Program-made: the position numbers and the translations under genes | Part shown: in pieces, positions 199-25,158 of the stretch | Position numbering within the stretch: position 1 is the first letter of the stretch | How the letters are laid out: each line of letters opens with the position of its first letter | Origin: a virus | Length of the DNA stretch: 25,376 nt | Virus record (IMG/VR): IMGVR_UViG_3300003690_000310 | Location: 1-25,376 of that record | Direction: 5' to 3' (one strand) | Notes under the pieces: model-generated | What the model was told of the DNA's origin: nothing | Database searches by the model: none | The model's input: only the letters and a program-made list of their open reading frames with translations

Positions 199-765
199 TC
201 AAAGCTCGAAGTTTCCATAAGCTTCATCGATCTCATCCTGTTCAATTCCAAGGTATCTCATGGTTACCGAAGGTCTGCTATGGTTCAGCATGCTCATAAC
301 CAGTGCGATGTTCTTCGTCTTCCGGTAGACATGGTAGGCAAGGCTTTTTCTCATGGAATGGGTACCAAAATTCTCTATCCCTATGGATCTGGCTGCCTTC
401 TTAAGATGTTTCCATGCAGTGACCCGATCTATATGATTGCGGGGATTCCGGTAGCTAAAGAATATCCAGTCATCATTGGTCAGTTCATAGTGATCGACGT
501 ATTCCGTGATAAGGCTGCGTATTTTGCCGTTTAACGGGACTTTCTTCATCTTGCCGTTCTTAGCCTCATTCAAGCGGAGATAATGCCGATAATCGCCATT
601 CTTGGCGAAAATATCGCTATATCTGATCCTGAGCAGATCGCCAATTCGCAGGATCGTATTGCATCCCAGCCGGAAAAGCAGTGCGTTCCGCAGATTCTGA
701 GAATCACGAAGCTTTATATATAGGCGTTCTATGTCCTCCAGATTTCTGATCGGTTCCACGGTCAT
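199..765 (-). CDS. int: short tyrosine recombinase / phage integrase
   Basis: This 188-aa protein is a tyrosine site-specific recombinase (phage integrase catalytic-domain family) that would integrate or excise the phage DNA. The full catalytic set is visible: Arg40 in the LRIGDLLRIR helix, a lysine in the AKNGK beta-hairpin (Lys69 or nearby), His136 and Arg139 in THSMRK, His162 in LNHSRP, and nucleophile Tyr171 in MRYLGI. It is much shorter than usual phage integrases (300-400 aa) and lacks the N-terminal arm-binding and SAM-like core-binding domains. In size it is closer to FimB/FimE-type invertases. The ATG overlaps the stop of the upstream 42-aa gene (ATGA) and has GGAG about eight bases upstream. 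It is the last clear gene of the leftward operon, so it is expected to be transcribed with the early genes. The attachment site is probably to its left, but none was identified. Confidence 0.9.
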   Translation of the reverse strand: MTVEPIRNLEDIERLYIKLRDSQNLRNALLFRLGCNTILRIGDLLRIRYSDIFAKNGDYRHYLRLNEAKNGKMKKVPLNGKIRSLITEYVDHYELTNDDWIFFSYRNPRNHIDRVTAWKHLKKAARSIGIENFGTHSMRKSLAYHVYRKTKNIALVMSMLNHSRPSVTMRYLGIEQDEIDEAYGNFEL

Positions 766-2626: not shown

Positions 2627-2808
2627 TTCACTTCCTCCTTCTTCTCAAAATAGTCATAATTTATATTCTGTAATTCCGCTTGCTCAATAATCCAATCACG
2701 GAACCCAACCCTTTTAAACCCATCGTATTCTTCTTGGTCAATCTCAAGACTTTGTAGGTGTATTGTATATCTCCATGTTCCTGCTCCTACAAATGTTTTT
2801 ACAGTCAT
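2623..2808 (-). CDS. hypothetical protein (61 aa)
   Basis: A 61-aa protein begins MTVKTFVGAGTWRYTIHL and has an acidic, aromatic C-terminal half ending EKKEEVK. AAGGAGG precedes the ATG. Both ends overlap neighbours by ATGA, typical of this operon. No motif or family is recognised. Confidence 0.55.
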   Translation of the reverse strand: MTVKTFVGAGTWRYTIHLQSLEIDQEEYDGFKRVGFRDWIIEQAELQNINYDYFEKKEEVK

Positions 2809-3071
2809 TTTTGTATCCTCCTTCCATTTTTATTCCATTCTTTTAGTGCTTTCACTGCTCTCTGCATTATATTATTCTCTATAGCCTCTTCTCGCTTTTC
2901 AAGTGAATCGAATGGAGTATAGGTATCACCACATCCTTCACAATCGCTATCTACATAGCTGCACCACCTATCATCCCATGCGAAATCACAATCAGGGCAG
3001 TAGTAATGCAGATCAAAGACCTGCGGATCCATATGCCAGAATACCTTATTTGTTTTTCTTCTTGTTGTCAT
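2805..3071 (-). CDS. hypothetical zinc-ribbon protein (88 aa)
   Basis: CPDC (Cys25/Cys28) and CEGC (Cys44/Cys47), with an extra Cys37, give a probable zinc ribbon rich in Trp/Asp (FAWDDRWCSYVDSDC). The N-terminus is basic (MTTRRKTNK) and the C-terminal half is a charged helix (KALKEWNKNG). It overlaps both neighbours by ATGA. It is similar in style, but not obviously in sequence, to the other cysteine proteins of the operon. Nucleic-acid binding is possible but unproven. Confidence 0.62.
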   Translation of the reverse strand: MTTRRKTNKVFWHMDPQVFDLHYYCPDCDFAWDDRWCSYVDSDCEGCGDTYTPFDSLEKREEAIENNIMQRAVKALKEWNKNGRRIQK

Positions 3072-3373
3072 TTTCTTCCTCCTTCTGCCTTAGCGATTGC
3101 ATCTTCTATCATGCCTGTATCTATGCTTTCATCTAAGATGTCAGCAATCTGTTCTGCATATGCTTCGGGTATGCTCCACAATACGTCCAGTGCATACTTA
3201 CAGGCAGTTAGTAATTCGGGTGCTGATGCGATCAGACTTGCTAATGTCTGAGATTCTTCATCGCTACCATATACTTCAGCAATGACCTCATCGTTACGCT
3301 CTATTGCCGTCCAACCCGATGAACTTTCAGATGGCGATGGATTTATTGTCCATTTACCTTTTGTGTATGTCAT
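3068..3373 (-). CDS. small phage protein of the MTYTKGKW family, copy 2 (101 aa)
   Basis: This paralogue of the gene at 1482-1733 shares MTYTKGKW at the start, LASLIASAPELLTA in the middle and AIAKAEGG at the end. The middle is longer than in copy 1 and includes a serine-rich loop and an acidic helix. The start is taken at the ATG 3371-3373 because AGGAGG lies seven bases upstream; an in-frame ATG ten codons earlier would place that SD inside the coding region. Function unknown. Two diverged copies in one operon imply an old duplication or separate acquisition. Confidence 0.7.
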   Translation of the reverse strand: MTYTKGKWTINPSPSESSSGWTAIERNDEVIAEVYGSDEESQTLASLIASAPELLTACKYALDVLWSIPEAYAEQIADILDESIDTGMIEDAIAKAEGGRK

Positions 3374-3399
3374 TATTCTACCTCCTTCTCTGTTGTGCT

Positions 3400-3522
3400 T
3401 CACAGTACCTTCAGCAAATCAAGTACACCGACACCAAATAGAATAAATACTCCTACCCAAATGGTTACAAATGCTGGTGGATTGATCCTGAAAAACCTCT
3501 TTTTTCTCTCTCTTAACGTCAT
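3400..3522 (-). CDS. small single-pass membrane protein (40 aa)
   Basis: A 40-aa frame has a basic N-terminus (MTLRERKKRFFR) and one hydrophobic segment (FVTIWVGVFILFGVGVLDLL, about residues 18-37), so it is predicted to sit in the inner membrane with its N-terminus inside. AGGAGG precedes the ATG, within the AGAGAAGGAG leader shared by several genes of the operon. Possible roles include superinfection exclusion, a toxin-like peptide or a small holin. None can be assigned from sequence. Confidence 0.6.
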   Translation of the reverse strand: MTLRERKKRFFRINPPAFVTIWVGVFILFGVGVLDLLKVL

Positions 3523-3837: not shown

Positions 3838-4782
3838 TCAGGATGGCTGTTTTCTGTCGCCAAGTATCCAGTCCACACCCTTAGCTGCTCTTGACGATGC
3901 CCAAACAAGCCAGTCGGTGTTATCCTGTAGCTTCTGTTTCCAGTTAGCGATGTAGGATGCTGAATTGTCCATCACTGAATCACCATTCACTCCGGTAATT
4001 CCTCGAAGGAATGTCGCACCCATCTCTGCAACCAACTCTTCTTTGCTGTACTTATGATTCCCAAAACCGTCACTGTTTACGAGAGAATCTCTATCCAGTC
4101 TTGATTGATGACCAGTGCTGTGTACCATCTCATGGAACCTTGTCGAGTAATACTCTGATGGAGTATTGAACTGGTCTGGATTAGGTAAGTGAATATCATC
4201 ATTTGATGGAGAGTAGTATGCTCTATCAGACTGGTCGTGGTATGTGTCCGGTGCATTCTCATAGCCGTCACAGATTTTCTCACATTCCTCGACAGGATCA
4301 AACTCCTCTCCTTCTCCCTCTTCTGGCTTGATGGTCTCGTAGTATTTCTCCGGCAACCCTTCACATTGCAGTGCATTGAAGACATTGAATGAGAATAGCT
4401 GTGGATACTTGGACTTATATATACCAGTTCCGTCGCAAGCTGTACACTGACCATTACTTGACAATCCTGATCCACCACAGGTACGACAATCGTATTCCTG
4501 ATTGAATTTCCAGTAATGGACTGGCATGGATTTCTCTCCTTTGCGTACCATACCACCAAGCTTCCGAGCTTGACCGAAGGTAAGCCACCAAGGGGAAGAA
4601 TATCCTGCACAACCGAGAATCATAGAGTTAGCACCTCGGTAGTGTTTCTTGGTCGAGATTGACCTTGGTGCATTGGAAATACCACCAACCCAAGGTTTTT
4701 TCCAAGGGATGATACCCTTATCGAGCATCTCAATGACCATCTCTGTGATCTTTTTGGTGATTTGTTTGTACATTTTACTCAT
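3838..4782 (-). CDS. ardC: ArdC-type antirestriction protein with inserted DnaJ-like zinc ribbon
   Basis: This 314-aa protein combines an N-terminal ArdC-type ssDNA-binding domain (about residues 1-140; PWKKPW and WWLTFGQARKLGG are typical) with a C-terminal zincin-like metallopeptidase domain. The active-site helix is FHEMVH, with His217, Glu218 and His221, and the downstream EELVAEMGA supplies the usual glutamate (Glu253 or Glu249). ArdC proteins protect incoming DNA from restriction. Unusually, residues 99-120 carry two CxxCxGxG motifs (CRTCGGSG at Cys99/Cys102 and CTACDGTG at Cys113/Cys116), as in the DnaJ zinc centre, placed between the WKF strand and the LFSFNVFNALQ strand. An acidic linker (EEGEGEEFDPVEECEK) separates the domains. 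The ATG overlaps the stop of the upstream gene (ATGA). It is the largest gene of the leftward operon and near its promoter, consistent with early expression against host restriction. Confidence 0.88.
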   Translation of the reverse strand: MSKMYKQITKKITEMVIEMLDKGIIPWKKPWVGGISNAPRSISTKKHYRGANSMILGCAGYSSPWWLTFGQARKLGGMVRKGEKSMPVHYWKFNQEYDCRTCGGSGLSSNGQCTACDGTGIYKSKYPQLFSFNVFNALQCEGLPEKYYETIKPEEGEGEEFDPVEECEKICDGYENAPDTYHDQSDRAYYSPSNDDIHLPNPDQFNTPSEYYSTRFHEMVHSTGHQSRLDRDSLVNSDGFGNHKYSKEELVAEMGATFLRGITGVNGDSVMDNSASYIANWKQKLQDNTDWLVWASSRAAKGVDWILGDRKQPS

Positions 4783-5030
4783 GTTTCGATCCTCCTGATA
4801 GCGGACTCTTCGGTAACTTGAAAGTAGCCATCACCGGAATATGCCCAGCAACAGCCGTCTGTGTCGATGTTGATGTAGCTTCTGGACACTATGTTCTTGT
4901 AGAGGTTGATCTCACCGCTCTTACCCATATGCATGAAATCACCGCAGTCGATTAGGTTAGGATACTTATCCGAGAAAGTTTCCAGAGGTATCCAGTTAGG
5001 TCGGTTGTCGAATGATATTTCCATTTCCAT
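4779..5030 (-). CDS. hypothetical protein upstream of ardC (83 aa)
   Basis: An acidic 83-aa protein begins MEMEISFDNRPNWIPLETF and contains two adjacent cysteines (DGCCWAY). No transmembrane segment or known family is seen. GAGAAGGAG precedes the first of two in-frame ATGs. Its TGA overlaps the ardC ATG, so the two are probably translated together. It could be a partner of ArdC or an unrelated early protein; its position is the only evidence. Confidence 0.6.
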   Translation of the reverse strand: MEMEISFDNRPNWIPLETFSDKYPNLIDCGDFMHMGKSGEINLYKNIVSRSYINIDTDGCCWAYSGDGYFQVTEESAIRRIET

Positions 5031-15544: not shown

Positions 15545-18500
15545 ATGGCGACTTTAACAGGAAGTAGTGTTGCTTCAACTTATACGCAACTATTAAAGAT
15601 TACATCTGCAACATTAACTGCGGATGCTTCAGCTAAATACATCGAGGACGGTGCTGGTACTGATTCAGCATTATCAATATCAACAACGAGGGTAGGAATT
15701 GGAACTGCGTCTCCAGACCAAGGTCTGCACGTTGTAGATGCTGGGGGTATCGTATCCACTTTTGAATCTTCTGATAACACCGAAGCATTTTTAGAGATTA
15801 AAGACTCAAATGATACTATTTGGAGAGTTGGAAACAATAATGATTCTTTTGAGATACGAGAGGATGGCACTACAAGAATGAAAATCGATGCCAACTCCCG
15901 CATCTCGCTCTCGAATAATGATAGTAGCAATACTTCAAATACCATATTTGGAAAATCAGCTTGGAATAATTCAAGTAATAATGGTTCAGACTTCAATACG
16001 ATTTTTGGCGAAGGAGTTATGGGTACTGGAGCAGTTGCTGGGGCAACTTATAATACTGCTATGGGGGCTAATACACTTATCGATATTACAGATGGTGACA
16101 TGAATACAGCATTAGGAGCAAGTGCATTAGCAAATCTTACATCAGGAAGTGAAAATATTGCTATTGGTACAGGTGCTGGTGAATTTCTTACTGATGCAAA
16201 TAAGTGTGTTTTCATTGGTAGGGAAGCTGGTGATGCAGTTACTGTAACTAATGGTGCTGCTTCTGATGGCACAGTTGCTGTAGGATACCAAGCACTCTCA
16301 CTCCTCACATCTGGCCCTGGAAATACAGCGGTTGGATATCAAAGTGGCGATGCTATTGCTGTCGGTGGAAGAAATACAGCGATGGGTTATTCTGCTATTT
16401 CAGCAGCTGCTGGTGATGATAATACAGGAATAGGATTTAATTCGTTAATTGTTAATACAGCTTCAGATAATACAGCCGTAGGTGCTTATTCGGGAGCTGC
16501 TCTTGCTGGAGTAGCTGGTAATACGATTGTCGGTAAAGGTGCTCTTTCTGTATCTACTGCGGCAGCAGACTGTGTCGCTATTGGTCACCTTGCAATGAGT
16601 GCTGGCACTGCAACTCAAGTTGGAACTGTGGCAATCGGTTCATATGCCCTTTCAGCCCTCACATCTGGTGTTGGGAATGTGGCTGTGGGGTATCAAGCCT
16701 CTGATTCAGTTACTGATGGTGCTAATAATATTGCAATCGGGGGTTATGATGGTACTCTTCAAGCTGCTTTAGGAGCTAATCAATCTGGTTCTTTTAATAT
16801 CGCAATAGGTACTAGTGCTTTATCTTTAATAAATGATTCCGATAATAATGGTACTATAGCAATAGGATATAAGGCTGGGCTTGCACAAGCTGGTACTGCT
16901 GGTTCTGAATTTGATTCAGCTCAAGTTTATATAGGACATGAGGCAGGTATGTCAGTCACTACAGCAACTGCCAGTCTCGCTATCGGTTTTCGTGCATTGA
17001 AGACACATACGACTGGTGGAAAGAATACGGCTATTGGATATGGTGCAATGCAGGATACCGATGAAGGTTCTACGAGTTTAGGTTCTATTAATAATATTTT
17101 TCTTGGTTATAATGCAGGTGGTGGTACTTGGGCAAATGTCGCATCTAATTATAATGTAGCTGTTGGCAATTATACAATGGATGCCGTTATGAATGGGGCT
17201 TTGAGCAACACTGCTGTTGGTTATGCATCATTGTCTGCTTTAACAACTGGAGATTATAACGTAGGCATTGGAAACACTGCATTAACGGCATTAAATACGG
17301 GAGAAGCTAATATTGCAGTCGGGAGAAATGCAGGGCTTGCTATTACTGGGCAAAATGAGTGTGTTCTTATAGGTCATAATGCTGGTGCTGCCATCAATGA
17401 TGATGCGGCAGACGGCAGTGTTGCAGTCGGATACCAAGCCCTCACAGCCCTCACAGATGGTGCTGCGAATTTGGCAATAGGGTATCAATCAATGGCTGCT
17501 TCTACAGATAGCACTGAAAATGTTATGATTGGATACCAATCGGCTGTGGCTGCTAATGATGCCAGTTTTAGATATAATGTTGGTGTTGGTAATTATGTTT
17601 TTGATGGAGTTGCTTCGGGTATTGATGCAGAAAGAAATACAGCTATTGGACATAGAGTAATGTCTGGAGTTTTAACTGACGTCAGTCATCATAATACTGG
17701 CGTTGGTTTTGAAGCTTTATTAAGTCTTACTTCTGGGGAGACTAATACTGTGGTTGGCAGTATAGCAGGAGATGCACTAACTGACGGTGCAAATAATGTA
17801 TTCATTGGATTTAATGCCGCTGGGGCTACCACAAGTTTAGACAAAGCAGTTGTTATAGGAGTTTCAGCAGTAGCTGATGTCGATATAACAGGTACTGATG
17901 CTGAAGGTACTGTGGCTATTGGGTATCATGCTTTAAAATCCCTCATATCTGGTGCTGCGAATACGGCTATTGGGTATCAATCTGCAGACGCATTAACAAT
18001 AGGAACAAGTAATGTTGCATTGGGAACTAGTGCCCTCGGTGCTGCTGTAGTAGATTCAAGTTGTACTGCTATAGGTTATAATGCACTTATACTTGCAAAT
18101 GTTTCTTCTGGTAGTGGTAGTGCTATAGAATCTCATAATACAGCAGTTGGCAAAGGTGCTGGAGCTGCGGTTTCAGTAGGATATTACAATACTCTTATAG
18201 GTTCATTGGCTGGAGATGGATTTGATGTAGAAAGTCATAATACTTGTCTTGGATATGCGGCTGGAGGAAATGCTCATGCTCTTAATAATACACTTGCTCT
18301 TGGTTCAAATTCCACACCAACTCAAAGTAATGAAACAGCAATAGGCAGAGCAAGTATATTTAAATTTGTATCTACAGAATATACTTGTGACCATGCACAC
18401 GGTGTGGATACAGCTTCAGCAGCAAGTCAGGCTACCCCTATTAAATTACCAGCTTATTCAATTATTAAAAGCATATCAGTAATAGTTACTCAATTAAGTA

Positions 18501-18808
18501 ACATCGGAACATATAATGTTGCTTTATACCTCAGTAGCGATACAGCAGCACCAGCAGACACGACTAATTTAACAGCTTCAGGATTAGTTGAAGTATTAGG
18601 TGCAGGAGCTTCTGCAGTAGATATTGCATTAGGCTCTGGAGCAATTGTAAAGCAATCATATTACAATGCTTATGGTGGAGCAGGGTTGCCTGTCGGGACT
18701 GCTGATTTATATATCAATGTTGGTAATGCTGGAACTGGTAATGGAACTACTGACCCAAGTACGGCTGGATTGATAAACGTATTAGTAGAATATGTAGGAT
18801 TAGATTAA
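15545..18808 (+). CDS. giant beta-roll repeat tail fibre/adhesin (1087 aa), no S74 domain
   Basis: The N-terminal ~150 residues include VGIGTASPDQGLHV, an opening common in environmental phage fibres. Residues ~140-940 consist of about 45 copies (counted by eye) of an N-T/V-A-V/I-G unit (NTAVGY, NIAIG, CVAIG and similar), as in trimeric autotransporter-like beta-roll stalks. A larger unit, GTVAVGYQAL.ALTSG.NTAIGYQS, recurs at residues 242, 360, 624 and 788. The last ~140 residues (from about YTCDHAHGVD to VEYVGLD) are a different, non-repeat domain, probably receptor-binding. Unlike the second fibre it lacks the S74 chaperone. It is expected to form a trimeric fibre that touches the host surface. 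It lies between capsid and adaptor genes rather than at the end of the tail module. Confidence 0.75.
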   Translation: MATLTGSSVASTYTQLLKITSATLTADASAKYIEDGAGTDSALSISTTRVGIGTASPDQGLHVVDAGGIVSTFESSDNTEAFLEIKDSNDTIWRVGNNNDSFEIREDGTTRMKIDANSRISLSNNDSSNTSNTIFGKSAWNNSSNNGSDFNTIFGEGVMGTGAVAGATYNTAMGANTLIDITDGDMNTALGASALANLTSGSENIAIGTGAGEFLTDANKCVFIGREAGDAVTVTNGAASDGTVAVGYQALSLLTSGPGNTAVGYQSGDAIAVGGRNTAMGYSAISAAAGDDNTGIGFNSLIVNTASDNTAVGAYSGAALAGVAGNTIVGKGALSVSTAAADCVAIGHLAMSAGTATQVGTVAIGSYALSALTSGVGNVAVGYQASDSVTDGANNIAIGGYDGTLQAALGANQSGSFNIAIGTSALSLINDSDNNGTIAIGYKAGLAQAGTAGSEFDSAQVYIGHEAGMSVTTATASLAIGFRALKTHTTGGKNTAIGYGAMQDTDEGSTSLGSINNIFLGYNAGGGTWANVASNYNVAVGNYTMDAVMNGALSNTAVGYASLSALTTGDYNVGIGNTALTALNTGEANIAVGRNAGLAITGQNECVLIGHNAGAAINDDAADGSVAVGYQALTALTDGAANLAIGYQSMAASTDSTENVMIGYQSAVAANDASFRYNVGVGNYVFDGVASGIDAERNTAIGHRVMSGVLTDVSHHNTGVGFEALLSLTSGETNTVVGSIAGDALTDGANNVFIGFNAAGATTSLDKAVVIGVSAVADVDITGTDAEGTVAIGYHALKSLISGAANTAIGYQSADALTIGTSNVALGTSALGAAVVDSSCTAIGYNALILANVSSGSGSAIESHNTAVGKGAGAAVSVGYYNTLIGSLAGDGFDVESHNTCLGYAAGGNAHALNNTLALGSNSTPTQSNETAIGRASIFKFVSTEYTCDHAHGVDTASAASQATPIKLPAYSIIKSISVIVTQLSNIGTYNVALYLSSDTAAPADTTNLTASGLVEVLGAGASAVDIALGSGAIVKQSYYNAYGGAGLPVGTADLYINVGNAGTGNGTTDPSTAGLINVLVEYVGLD

Positions 18809-22143: not shown

Positions 22144-25100
22144 ATGCCTGAATATCACTTTAGCAATGATCCCAAAGACACTTACACAACATTATTGTCT
22201 GTTGGGACTAAAACAAATCCCGGTTTACACGCAACAAGCCAAAGGTCTGTATGGACTGACGATGGAGATGACTCTAAATCAGATGCTCCCTTTCAAATAG
22301 CAATGGATGCTATGCAAATGCAAAGCACAAGACCTCTGGAATTTAATGCAGCGACGGAATTTATTAATTCATCAACTGCTGGGCAGCTTGATATAGATGC
22401 AGGCACAACAATTGAAGTGACAGCACCAACCATTGAGCTGGCTGGTGCCACTCTTATAGATTTGCAGGGTGATACCGTTAAAATTGGTGAGGGTGGAGAC
22501 ACTGATATTACCTTAACATTCAATGCGAACAGCAATGATGGCGTTCTGACATGGATGGAGGATGAAGATAATTTTAAGTTCAGTGATGATGTGCTTATTA
22601 ATGGCTCTGAGAAGTTATATCTATATGATATTGGAGGTGAATATATATCTTCCGACGGTACAGATTTTACCATTAACTCCGGAAACGATATAAAACTTAC
22701 ATGCGGTGCAAGTGGAGATGTAGTTATACCTGCCAATGTAGGGATTACATTTGGCACAGGTGAAAAAATAGAAGGTAACAATACTGACCTAACTATAACA
22801 TCTGGTGCTAATATTAATCTTACTGCTACCTCAGATGTAGTTATACCCGCAGATGTTGGTATTACTTTTGGTTCTGGAGAAAAAATAGAAGGTAATGATA
22901 CAGATTTAACAGTTACATCTGGAGCAGATATTAATTTAACTGCTACTTCTGATGTTAATATTCCTTCTGATGTAGGAGTGACATTTGGTAATGACGGTGA
23001 AAAGATAGAGGGTGATGGATCCGACCTGACCATATCAAGCAGCGGAGCTTTAAATGTGACAAATTCAGGTTCAGGTAACAATATTGTCATCGATTCTACT
23101 GCTGGCTCTGTATACATAGACGGTGGAGAGAGTTCGGCAGCGGCAATTTATCTATCTGCAACTGGCTCTCATGCCAACACAACGGTTCTTATAAGCAGTG
23201 CTGGAACTGGAGCCTCGGCAATCGATATTGATTCCTCTGGCGGTTTTGATTTAGATACTATAAAGGGCATTACAGCAGACTGTACAACTTTGTCATTGGA
23301 CTCTACCGACACAACCAATCTCACAATGACAGCCAGCCATGCGTCAACTAAAGTATTGACTATTTCTGGCACAAACGCTGATGGTAGTGGTCAGGCTGAT
23401 CTGCATCTGGACATGGACGGCGACATTCATTTAAAATCCAATATTACTGGAGCGATAACAAATATGGCTTCATTATCTACATCTGTCTCGACAGCCGCAG
23501 GGATTCAGATTGGGACTGATCTTGCTGCTGTTGACATTGCGATAGGAGAAGCAAGCGATTCAAATGTTCTAATATCAGACAATTTAAAGGTTGGCGGTGA
23601 TGCTTGGGTGTCAGGAACATTGACAGCAGGCACAGTCAGTTATACAACTCTAACAATAACTCACGCCACGAAGTCCGTGTTAACACTGCACAACAGCGAA
23701 GAGTCTGATTCTGAGGGTGATAGGGATAGCTGGATTGTTTTTGAGGGTGAAGTTGCTGGAGAATCAGGTACAGGACATCAGCTCGCATATATAAAAGTTA
23801 CCCATGATTCTGGCGATTCAGATAAAGACGGTGGTATGTATTTTAACACCAATGATGGTTCAGACACTGATGATGCTTTGACTGAGCGGCTATTTTTTGA
23901 TCATGCTGGCAATGCTCAGTTCTCAACGGATATTGGGATCGAAGCCACAAGTAAATTATATCTTGATGGCAAAGGTTGCAGTGGCGATACATTTCTTTAT
24001 GAGAAAGCTGCTGATGAAGTTGTTCTGTCTTGTGGTGGTGAAGAGATCAGAATGGCAGATGCAACAGGAACAGGCAAGAACACAATATATGGCGTTGATG
24101 CGGGTCTAAGCCTTGATTCATCTTCAGATGAAAATGTATTTATCGGAGCATATTGTGCGGACGGCAGCCTGAGCGGTGCTGATAAAAATGTGGGCGTAGG
24201 TTACTTAAGTTTGTCGGCATTGACGAATGGTCGTAAAAATACCGCCGTGGGCTGGTCATCCCTTCTAAAGAACACCACGGGGCAATACAACACTGGTCTT
24301 GGTGATGAGACTTTATATGAAAATCTTACAGGGACTTGCAATACTGCTTGTGGATTTTCGAGTTTGTATAATACTACAGGAAGCCAGAACTCAGCAGTAG
24401 GATATAGAGCGATGTATACAAATGCTGGCGGTGCATATGCAGTCGCAATGGGCTATGATGCTCTTCATGGCAACACCTCGGGAAATAACAACACAGCCGT
24501 TGGTGCTATAGCTCTCAAAGAAAATGAGGGCGGGTCAGACAATGTCGCCGTTGGATACAGTGCTGGTGAGCATGATGATGGTGGTAATGATGTCGTTACA
24601 GCAACCCAGTGTGTGATCATTGGATCAGAGGCAGACTTTGAAACCACAACTCCTACCAATGAAATAGTTATTGGATATGGAGCTGATGGAAATGGTGATA
24701 ATAAAATTGCCTTGGGCAACACCTCTATAACCGCTGTACAAGGTCAGGTTGACTTTACTGCCTATTCTGATGCCAGAATAAAGCGTGCTATAAAACCAAC
24801 GGATATTGGCTTGGCTTTTATCAATAAATTAAATCCAATTCAATACAAACGGGTCAACCCTTTTGATTATCCGTCTGCACTAAAAGAACGAAGGTTTAAA
24901 AAGACCTCGATTACTAATGAAGATGGTACCAAGAGATTTAGAGAGCCAGATAAAAAACCACCAGCTGATAATTCGATATGTCACGGTTTAATTGCCCAAG
25001 AGGTAAAAGCGGTTTTGGATGAGCTAAGTGTTGAATCTAATATCTGGAACGAGACAGGAAGAGGCAAACAGGGTCTCCAGTATGCGACATTGGTAGTTCC

Positions 25101-25158
25101 ACTTGTAAAAGCCATTCAGGAACTTTCTGCCAAGGTAGAAGCATTGGAGAAACAATAA
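22144..25158 (+). CDS. tail fibre/spike with beta-repeats and C-terminal S74 intramolecular chaperone (1004 aa)
   Basis: The N-terminus (MPEYHFSNDPKDTYTTLL) may attach the spike to the tail. Residues ~190-310 are three 39-aa repeats. Residues ~310-650 are serine/threonine-rich beta-strands. Residues ~655-870 are NxAVGY beta-roll units of the same kind as in the fibre at 15545. The final ~130 residues are a peptidase S74 (endosialidase-type) chaperone: YSDARIKRAI places Ser875/Asp876 at the self-cleavage point, followed by the LNPIQYKR strand, GLIAQEVKAVL and a closing coiled coil (KAIQELSAKVEALEKQ). Such chaperones help trimer folding, then cut themselves off. An AAGGAG SD precedes the ATG. 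The spike probably binds or degrades a surface polysaccharide, although no enzyme active site is evident. Confidence 0.85.
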   Translation: MPEYHFSNDPKDTYTTLLSVGTKTNPGLHATSQRSVWTDDGDDSKSDAPFQIAMDAMQMQSTRPLEFNAATEFINSSTAGQLDIDAGTTIEVTAPTIELAGATLIDLQGDTVKIGEGGDTDITLTFNANSNDGVLTWMEDEDNFKFSDDVLINGSEKLYLYDIGGEYISSDGTDFTINSGNDIKLTCGASGDVVIPANVGITFGTGEKIEGNNTDLTITSGANINLTATSDVVIPADVGITFGSGEKIEGNDTDLTVTSGADINLTATSDVNIPSDVGVTFGNDGEKIEGDGSDLTISSSGALNVTNSGSGNNIVIDSTAGSVYIDGGESSAAAIYLSATGSHANTTVLISSAGTGASAIDIDSSGGFDLDTIKGITADCTTLSLDSTDTTNLTMTASHASTKVLTISGTNADGSGQADLHLDMDGDIHLKSNITGAITNMASLSTSVSTAAGIQIGTDLAAVDIAIGEASDSNVLISDNLKVGGDAWVSGTLTAGTVSYTTLTITHATKSVLTLHNSEESDSEGDRDSWIVFEGEVAGESGTGHQLAYIKVTHDSGDSDKDGGMYFNTNDGSDTDDALTERLFFDHAGNAQFSTDIGIEATSKLYLDGKGCSGDTFLYEKAADEVVLSCGGEEIRMADATGTGKNTIYGVDAGLSLDSSSDENVFIGAYCADGSLSGADKNVGVGYLSLSALTNGRKNTAVGWSSLLKNTTGQYNTGLGDETLYENLTGTCNTACGFSSLYNTTGSQNSAVGYRAMYTNAGGAYAVAMGYDALHGNTSGNNNTAVGAIALKENEGGSDNVAVGYSAGEHDDGGNDVVTATQCVIIGSEADFETTTPTNEIVIGYGADGNGDNKIALGNTSITAVQGQVDFTAYSDARIKRAIKPTDIGLAFINKLNPIQYKRVNPFDYPSALKERRFKKTSITNEDGTKRFREPDKKPPADNSICHGLIAQEVKAVLDELSVESNIWNETGRGKQGLQYATLVVPLVKAIQELSAKVEALEKQ
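22720..23070 (+). repeat. three tandem 117-base repeats in spike gene
   Basis: The segments beginning at 22720, 22837 and 22954 are exactly 117 bases apart and encode a 39-residue unit starting VVIPA(N/D)VGITFG, with EKIEGN and TDLT(I/V)TSGA. The third copy is diverged and ends in a serine-rich stretch. The unit looks like one or more coils of a beta-helix. It is a likely spot for recombination or copy-number change. Confidence 0.85.

Follow-up and report, generated by a model that had tools for sequence, protein, structure and literature searches.

The closest solved relative of the protein described here is R388 ArdC (6I89, 6SNA). In its single-stranded-DNA-binding domain the beta3-beta4 hairpin is 'long and protuberant' and the motif VFNADQ stands just after beta4; the ligands in the Mn-bound structure are H201, H205 and, as the third, E229 (PMC7213743). 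Antirestriction by R388 ArdC does not need protease activity, and the only partner pulled down with it is a protein of unknown function (PMC7213743). Full-length homologues at 24–44% identity to the present protein are found in PHROG 7245 and among other phage ArdCs (Caulobacter, Brevundimonas and Synechococcus phages). In the open papers searched a zinc insert in ArdC was not described, and the terms 'zinc ribbon', 'treble-clef' and 'cysteine' were all absent from the text of the polyvalent-protein survey. The DNA polymerase of HMO-2011-type marine phages carries two inserted CXXCXGXG motifs, a partial DnaJ central domain (PMC9038755), so such inserts are not unheard of in phage DNA enzymes.

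The ardC gene and its setting

The window, meaning the whole stretch of DNA analysed here, is a virus record of 25,376 bases (IMGVR_UViG_3300003690_000310) with genes for a P22-type portal, a terminase and a capsid protein. One open and intact reading frame on its minus strand encodes a protein of 314 aa that was matched by Pfam ArdcN (PF08401; 97.8 bits against a cut-off of 22.6), by MPTase-PolyVal (PF18818; 105.1 bits against a cut-off of 27.5) and, over its entire length, by PHROG 7245 'anti-restriction protein' (4e-73). The positions of the features are collected in Table 1. An AlphaFold2 model was made with 70 homologues (mean pLDDT 88.7), and its best solved match in Foldseek was R388 ArdC 6I89 (E 1.1e-20, TM 0.69/0.78), which the protein matched by sequence as well. 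H217, E218, H221, E248 and E249 were invariant in alignments of 17 and of 70 homologues and occupy the positions of H201, E202, H205 and E228-E229 of R388 ArdC, to which the protein is alike in both domains, the fold, the metal-site motif, the VFN squiggle and the hairpin. The identification as ArdC in the preliminary description was thus borne out by the two domain matches and the fold match: judged from sequence and predicted fold, the gene product is a phage ArdC with a BHD/Rad4-like single-stranded-DNA-binding domain and a gluzincin-type metallopeptidase domain, its activity being predicted.

Table 1. Location of ardC, its neighbour and the features of its product within the window.
Feature	Position	Strand	Basis
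ArdC-type anti-restriction protein, 314 aa	3838..4782	-	ORF, Pfam, PHROG, R388 ArdC match
ArdcN domain (residues 6-98)	4489..4767	-	Pfam match, ends at insert
Predicted strand beta3 (residues 86-98), first hairpin arm	4489..4527	-	AlphaFold2
Four-cysteine insert core CRTCGGSGLSSNGQCTACDGTG (residues 99-120), Cys99/102/113/116	4423..4488	-	Sequence, alignments
Predicted strand beta4 (residues 121-136), second hairpin arm, leading to VFN 'squiggle' (134-136)	4375..4422	-	AlphaFold2
MPTase-PolyVal zincin domain (residues 182-297)	3892..4239	-	Pfam match
HEMVH metal-binding motif (residues 217-221)	4120..4134	-	Sequence and alignments
E248-E249	4036..4041	-	Alignment position of R388 ArdC E228-E229
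83-aa gene directly upstream of ardC	4779..5030	-	ATGA stop/start overlap with ardC

The small gene directly upstream of ardC has a homologue in related phages, where it does not adjoin ardC. The minus-strand block of ardC also contains four small ORFs that are rich in cysteine and have CxxC pairs (887-1129, 2039-2254, 2276-2626 and 2805-3071); none of the four had a PHROG match or a double CxxCxG, and none of the three scanned had a Pfam match. Two related genes of the same phage genome fragment (1482-1733 and 3068-3403, minus strand) both match PHROG 1273, of unknown function. An integrase family protein is encoded at 199-765 (minus strand) and has homologues of 46–50% identity in several related phages, which suggests that the group is temperate. 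Outside the block, a 1087-aa ORF (15545-18808, plus strand) is rich in repeats of the 'NTAIGYxAL' type and had no Pfam match, and similar repeats recur in another ORF (22144-25158), the end of which is a Peptidase_S74 intramolecular chaperone.

Four cysteines in the turn of the hairpin

The cysteines are set in CRTC, from residue 99, and CTAC, from residue 113, each of which opens a CxxCxGxG octet (residues 99-106 and 113-120). The last residue matched by ArdcN is 98, and the insert begins with the very next one. In an alignment with 17 database ArdCs the insert forms the turn between a strand ending in '..FW.F' (here FWKF) and the strand that runs to VFN; R388 ArdC is without it, and its two aligned stretches flank the insert of the window protein. 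The two motifs, the four cysteine positions, the location between beta-strands of the ssDNA-binding domain and the order with the insert (cysteines 99-116) well ahead of HEMVH had all been given in the preliminary description, and all agree with the translation and the alignments. In the AlphaFold2 model the pLDDT was 64–66 at residues 101-120; another run, on 13 relatives that bear the insert, gave 75 at 111-120 and still 64 at 101-110. Both models present the region as a plausible hairpin with two turns, at low confidence (pLDDT about 64–75).

The same description had called the insert DnaJ-type. The cysteine-rich domain of DnaJ has four CxxCxGxG motifs and two zinc sites. The pattern is common to DnaJ (Hsp40, PF00684) and the window protein, but the latter has two motifs only, and other bearers of the insert keep one full motif or none. 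The window protein scored 19.5 bits against DnaJ_CXXCXGXG (PF00684), below the cut-off of 32.7, and six insert-bearing relatives gave no DnaJ match at E values up to 1. Kinship with DnaJ is not supported by these results, which leave a resemblance of motif. The HMO-2011-type polymerase likewise handles DNA in a phage and has two inserted CXXCXGXG motifs, but the carrier protein is another one and its insert lies between two domains, not in a hairpin turn; the resemblance noted is one of motif. No other ORF with a double CxxCxG that could have served as donor was found in the window and the related contigs examined.

Four cysteines were kept in all 14 distinct bearers of the insert despite at least four spacings. 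The spacing C-x2-C-x10-C-x2-C was found in the window and the L068 group, C-x2-C-x6-C-x2-C in L225 and L323, C-x2-C-x4-C-x2-C in L232 and L233, and C-x9-C-x4-C-x2-C, which has no first CxxC pair, in six bearers (L226, L227, L228, L230, L307 and L308). Relatives within the window's own group differ in the first half and hardly at all in the second, CxxCxG(S/T)G. Two cysteine pairs, as in a structural zinc ribbon or double zinc knuckle, are conserved across these bearers, the first pair being C-x9-C in one class. Their persistence through changes of spacing fits a single structural metal site and would not be expected of a drifting loop.

CxxC pairs can be redox active, and in a further reading the four cysteines would be a switch, responsive to redox state or metal, between the hairpin and the metallopeptidase domain. 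The putative DNA-binding groove of R388 ArdC does lie between its two domains (PMC7213743). However, six of the 14 bearers are without the first CxxC pair, metal binding fits the spacings better than a dithiol switch does, and direct evidence for a switch was not found; we regard it as highly improbable.

Distribution and origin of the insert

The number of cysteines in the hairpin segment was bimodal among the 277 distinct ArdCs listed: none in 239, one in 22, two in one, three in one and at least four in fourteen. Four cysteines were found there in one of 78 proteins among the matches listed for a viral scan with a general ArdC profile, which is the least biased viral sample, and in none of 17 from the phage database (in this unlike the window protein), none of two plasmid proteins and none of 73 listed from cellular genomes; the other ArdCs of the 277 came from scans aimed at the window protein's kin, and all these collections are samples rather than censuses. 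The preliminary description would have held the insert to be ordinary had most ArdC homologues carried it; most of those sampled do not, and the insert is restricted to a subgroup, with bearers found chiefly in the window's own phage group. At the cysteine frequency of hairpins in insert-less ArdCs (0.0029), at least four cysteines in 48 residues would arise in one protein with a probability of about 1e-5; this, and the recurrence of four cysteines in 14 distinct proteins, argue that the motif is not due to chance.

Of two profile scans of cellular-genome contigs, one gave no relative and the other at least 80 loci, none with the insert. When the insert region alone was used in tblastn, the best matches were plasmid ArdCs, and the two that were read had no four-cysteine pattern. 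A DNA pattern scan (VFN plus four cysteines) yielded noise, with no ArdC among the loci examined. Viral contigs scanned with exact 8-mers of the window protein gave no match, since its close kin apparently share none of them; the kin were found by profile scans.

The ArdCs of L225-L231, L305-L313, L319 and L323 are 53–58% identical to the window protein (many are the same contigs twice, and counts were made on distinct proteins). All the distinct proteins among them have the four cysteines, and most of their contigs have about 74% terminase and 63–68% capsid identity to the window. By these sequence comparisons most of these insert carriers belong, with the window, to one environmental phage group. 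A full ArdC was present on eight contigs (about 74% terminase identity) among 45 terminase relatives, many of which are too short for the presence of ArdC to be judged, and the insert was found in all eight as well as in the window. Several long terminase relatives have no ArdC near the terminase. One of them, L467 (IMGVR_UViG_3300025082_000176), is 88–90% identical to the window in terminase, portal and capsid (terminase 90%), and the 7.2 kb upstream of its terminase yielded no homologue of ardC or of any other gene in the minus-strand block. Because several similar phages lack it near the terminase, ardC is an accessory gene of the group. Four-cysteine inserts of different build occur in L232 and L233 (terminase 67–68%) and in L068, L102 and L103 (terminase about 40%). 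In L323 the insert is present and no terminase match was found in the 57-kb record, which suggests gene transfer.

In trees computed after removal of the insert columns, L232/L233 branched together with the window group (98 SH-aLRT, 127 rows); in the 50-row tree this branch, with support 99/82, holds eleven bearers including the window. A single origin of all inserts was recovered in 24% of bootstraps with 50 rows, and two changes are needed with 127 rows. The inserts may thus have had one or two origins, the placement of the L068 group on the trees being uncertain. On the comparisons made, the insert is a real, lineage-restricted variant of the known protein ArdC.

One pair of relatives differs mainly in the insert. 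The DNA upstream of ardC in contigs L305 and L306 is 95.4–95.8% identical, and their ArdCs (L225 and L226, respectively) differ by nine substitutions over the 281 residues that flank the insert, where every 28-residue stretch has at least 86% identity. The DNA of the two genes is 98% identical before the insert and 92% after it. The inserts themselves, of 28 and 33 residues, belong to different spacing classes and have 50% aligned identity with nine gap positions. The tree places L225 in one nested cluster with L226 and L307. The simplest reading of these sequences is that the insert was replaced by recombination or changed very fast. This strongest case for exchange comes from one 6.8-kb contig (L225/L305), for which an assembly error is possible, and the insert is not hypervariable in every pair, being conserved about as much as the remainder between L226/L307 and L227/L308.

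Predicted role of the insert

It is proposed that, in this phage lineage, a small two-knuckle, four-cysteine module has taken the place of the tip of the long beta3-beta4 hairpin. The module, with its CxxCxGxG-type halves, the second of them more conserved, is predicted most likely to hold one structural zinc ion, which would pin down a loop that is otherwise floppy and make it a rigid cap projecting from the DNA-binding domain. The cap would add a recognition surface, for a host-defence protein or a DNA-protein complex more likely than for DNA alone, and the core function of ArdC, to bind single-stranded or entering phage DNA and shield it from restriction, would be unchanged. The suggestion in the preliminary description that the insert may alter DNA or protein targeting stands as a hypothesis. 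Zinc binding, rigidity and any recognition role are what we infer for the insert. A zinc-pinned cap serving as an added recognition surface on an otherwise unchanged ArdC is, on balance, the somewhat probable account.

The cap could instead have no binding role and serve purely as a structural clamp, its zinc closing a hairpin that is over-long, in a turn that tolerates inserts of many lengths. The turn does vary widely in cysteine-free ArdCs (24–54 residues between fixed points), which indicates a tolerant site. Pure filler, however, would lose its cysteines, and all four are kept while the spacing and nearly everything else change; a clamp would still be compatible with their retention, and we consider it unlikely.

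With somewhat more in its favour, though still rather doubtful, the cap may be a zinc knuckle that binds nucleic acid and extends the ssDNA surface of the hairpin, affecting affinity or the preference for strand or junction, with no protein target. The hairpin that bears it belongs to a domain that binds ssDNA in R388 ArdC (PMC7213743), CXXCXGXG modules occur in the HMO-2011-type phage DNA polymerase (PMC9038755), and Spartan's SprT, a structural relative of the ArdC peptidase domain, has a distinct sub-domain that binds zinc. Basic residues are present in the second half of several relatives, for example in CGKCKGSGTYK of L228. The window insert, however, has no Lys or Arg between Arg100 and Lys123, and strong change of the insert between near-identical proteins is not needed for a generic contact with ssDNA. 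With lower confidence, then, a protein or nucleoprotein target seems likelier than DNA, because the cap can change where the DNA-binding core does not; the window cap is also without basic residues in that stretch, although some relatives have them.

Since R388 antirestriction needs no protease site, it is reasonable to look to the N-terminal domain for recognition of a partner. Our best guess is that the window insert is a zinc-pinned, exchangeable recognition tip. In a stronger form, which we consider improbable, the hairpin tip would be an exchangeable zinc-pinned specificity cassette, comparable to the variable tips of receptor-binding proteins: by exchange or fast diversification of the cap, related phages would direct an otherwise constant ArdC against one or another restriction or defence protein of the host. 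A small surface patch that can change on a nearly constant protein points to a possible site of partner recognition. Proteins of the L225 and L226 types would be natural swap mutants with which such recognition could be tested.
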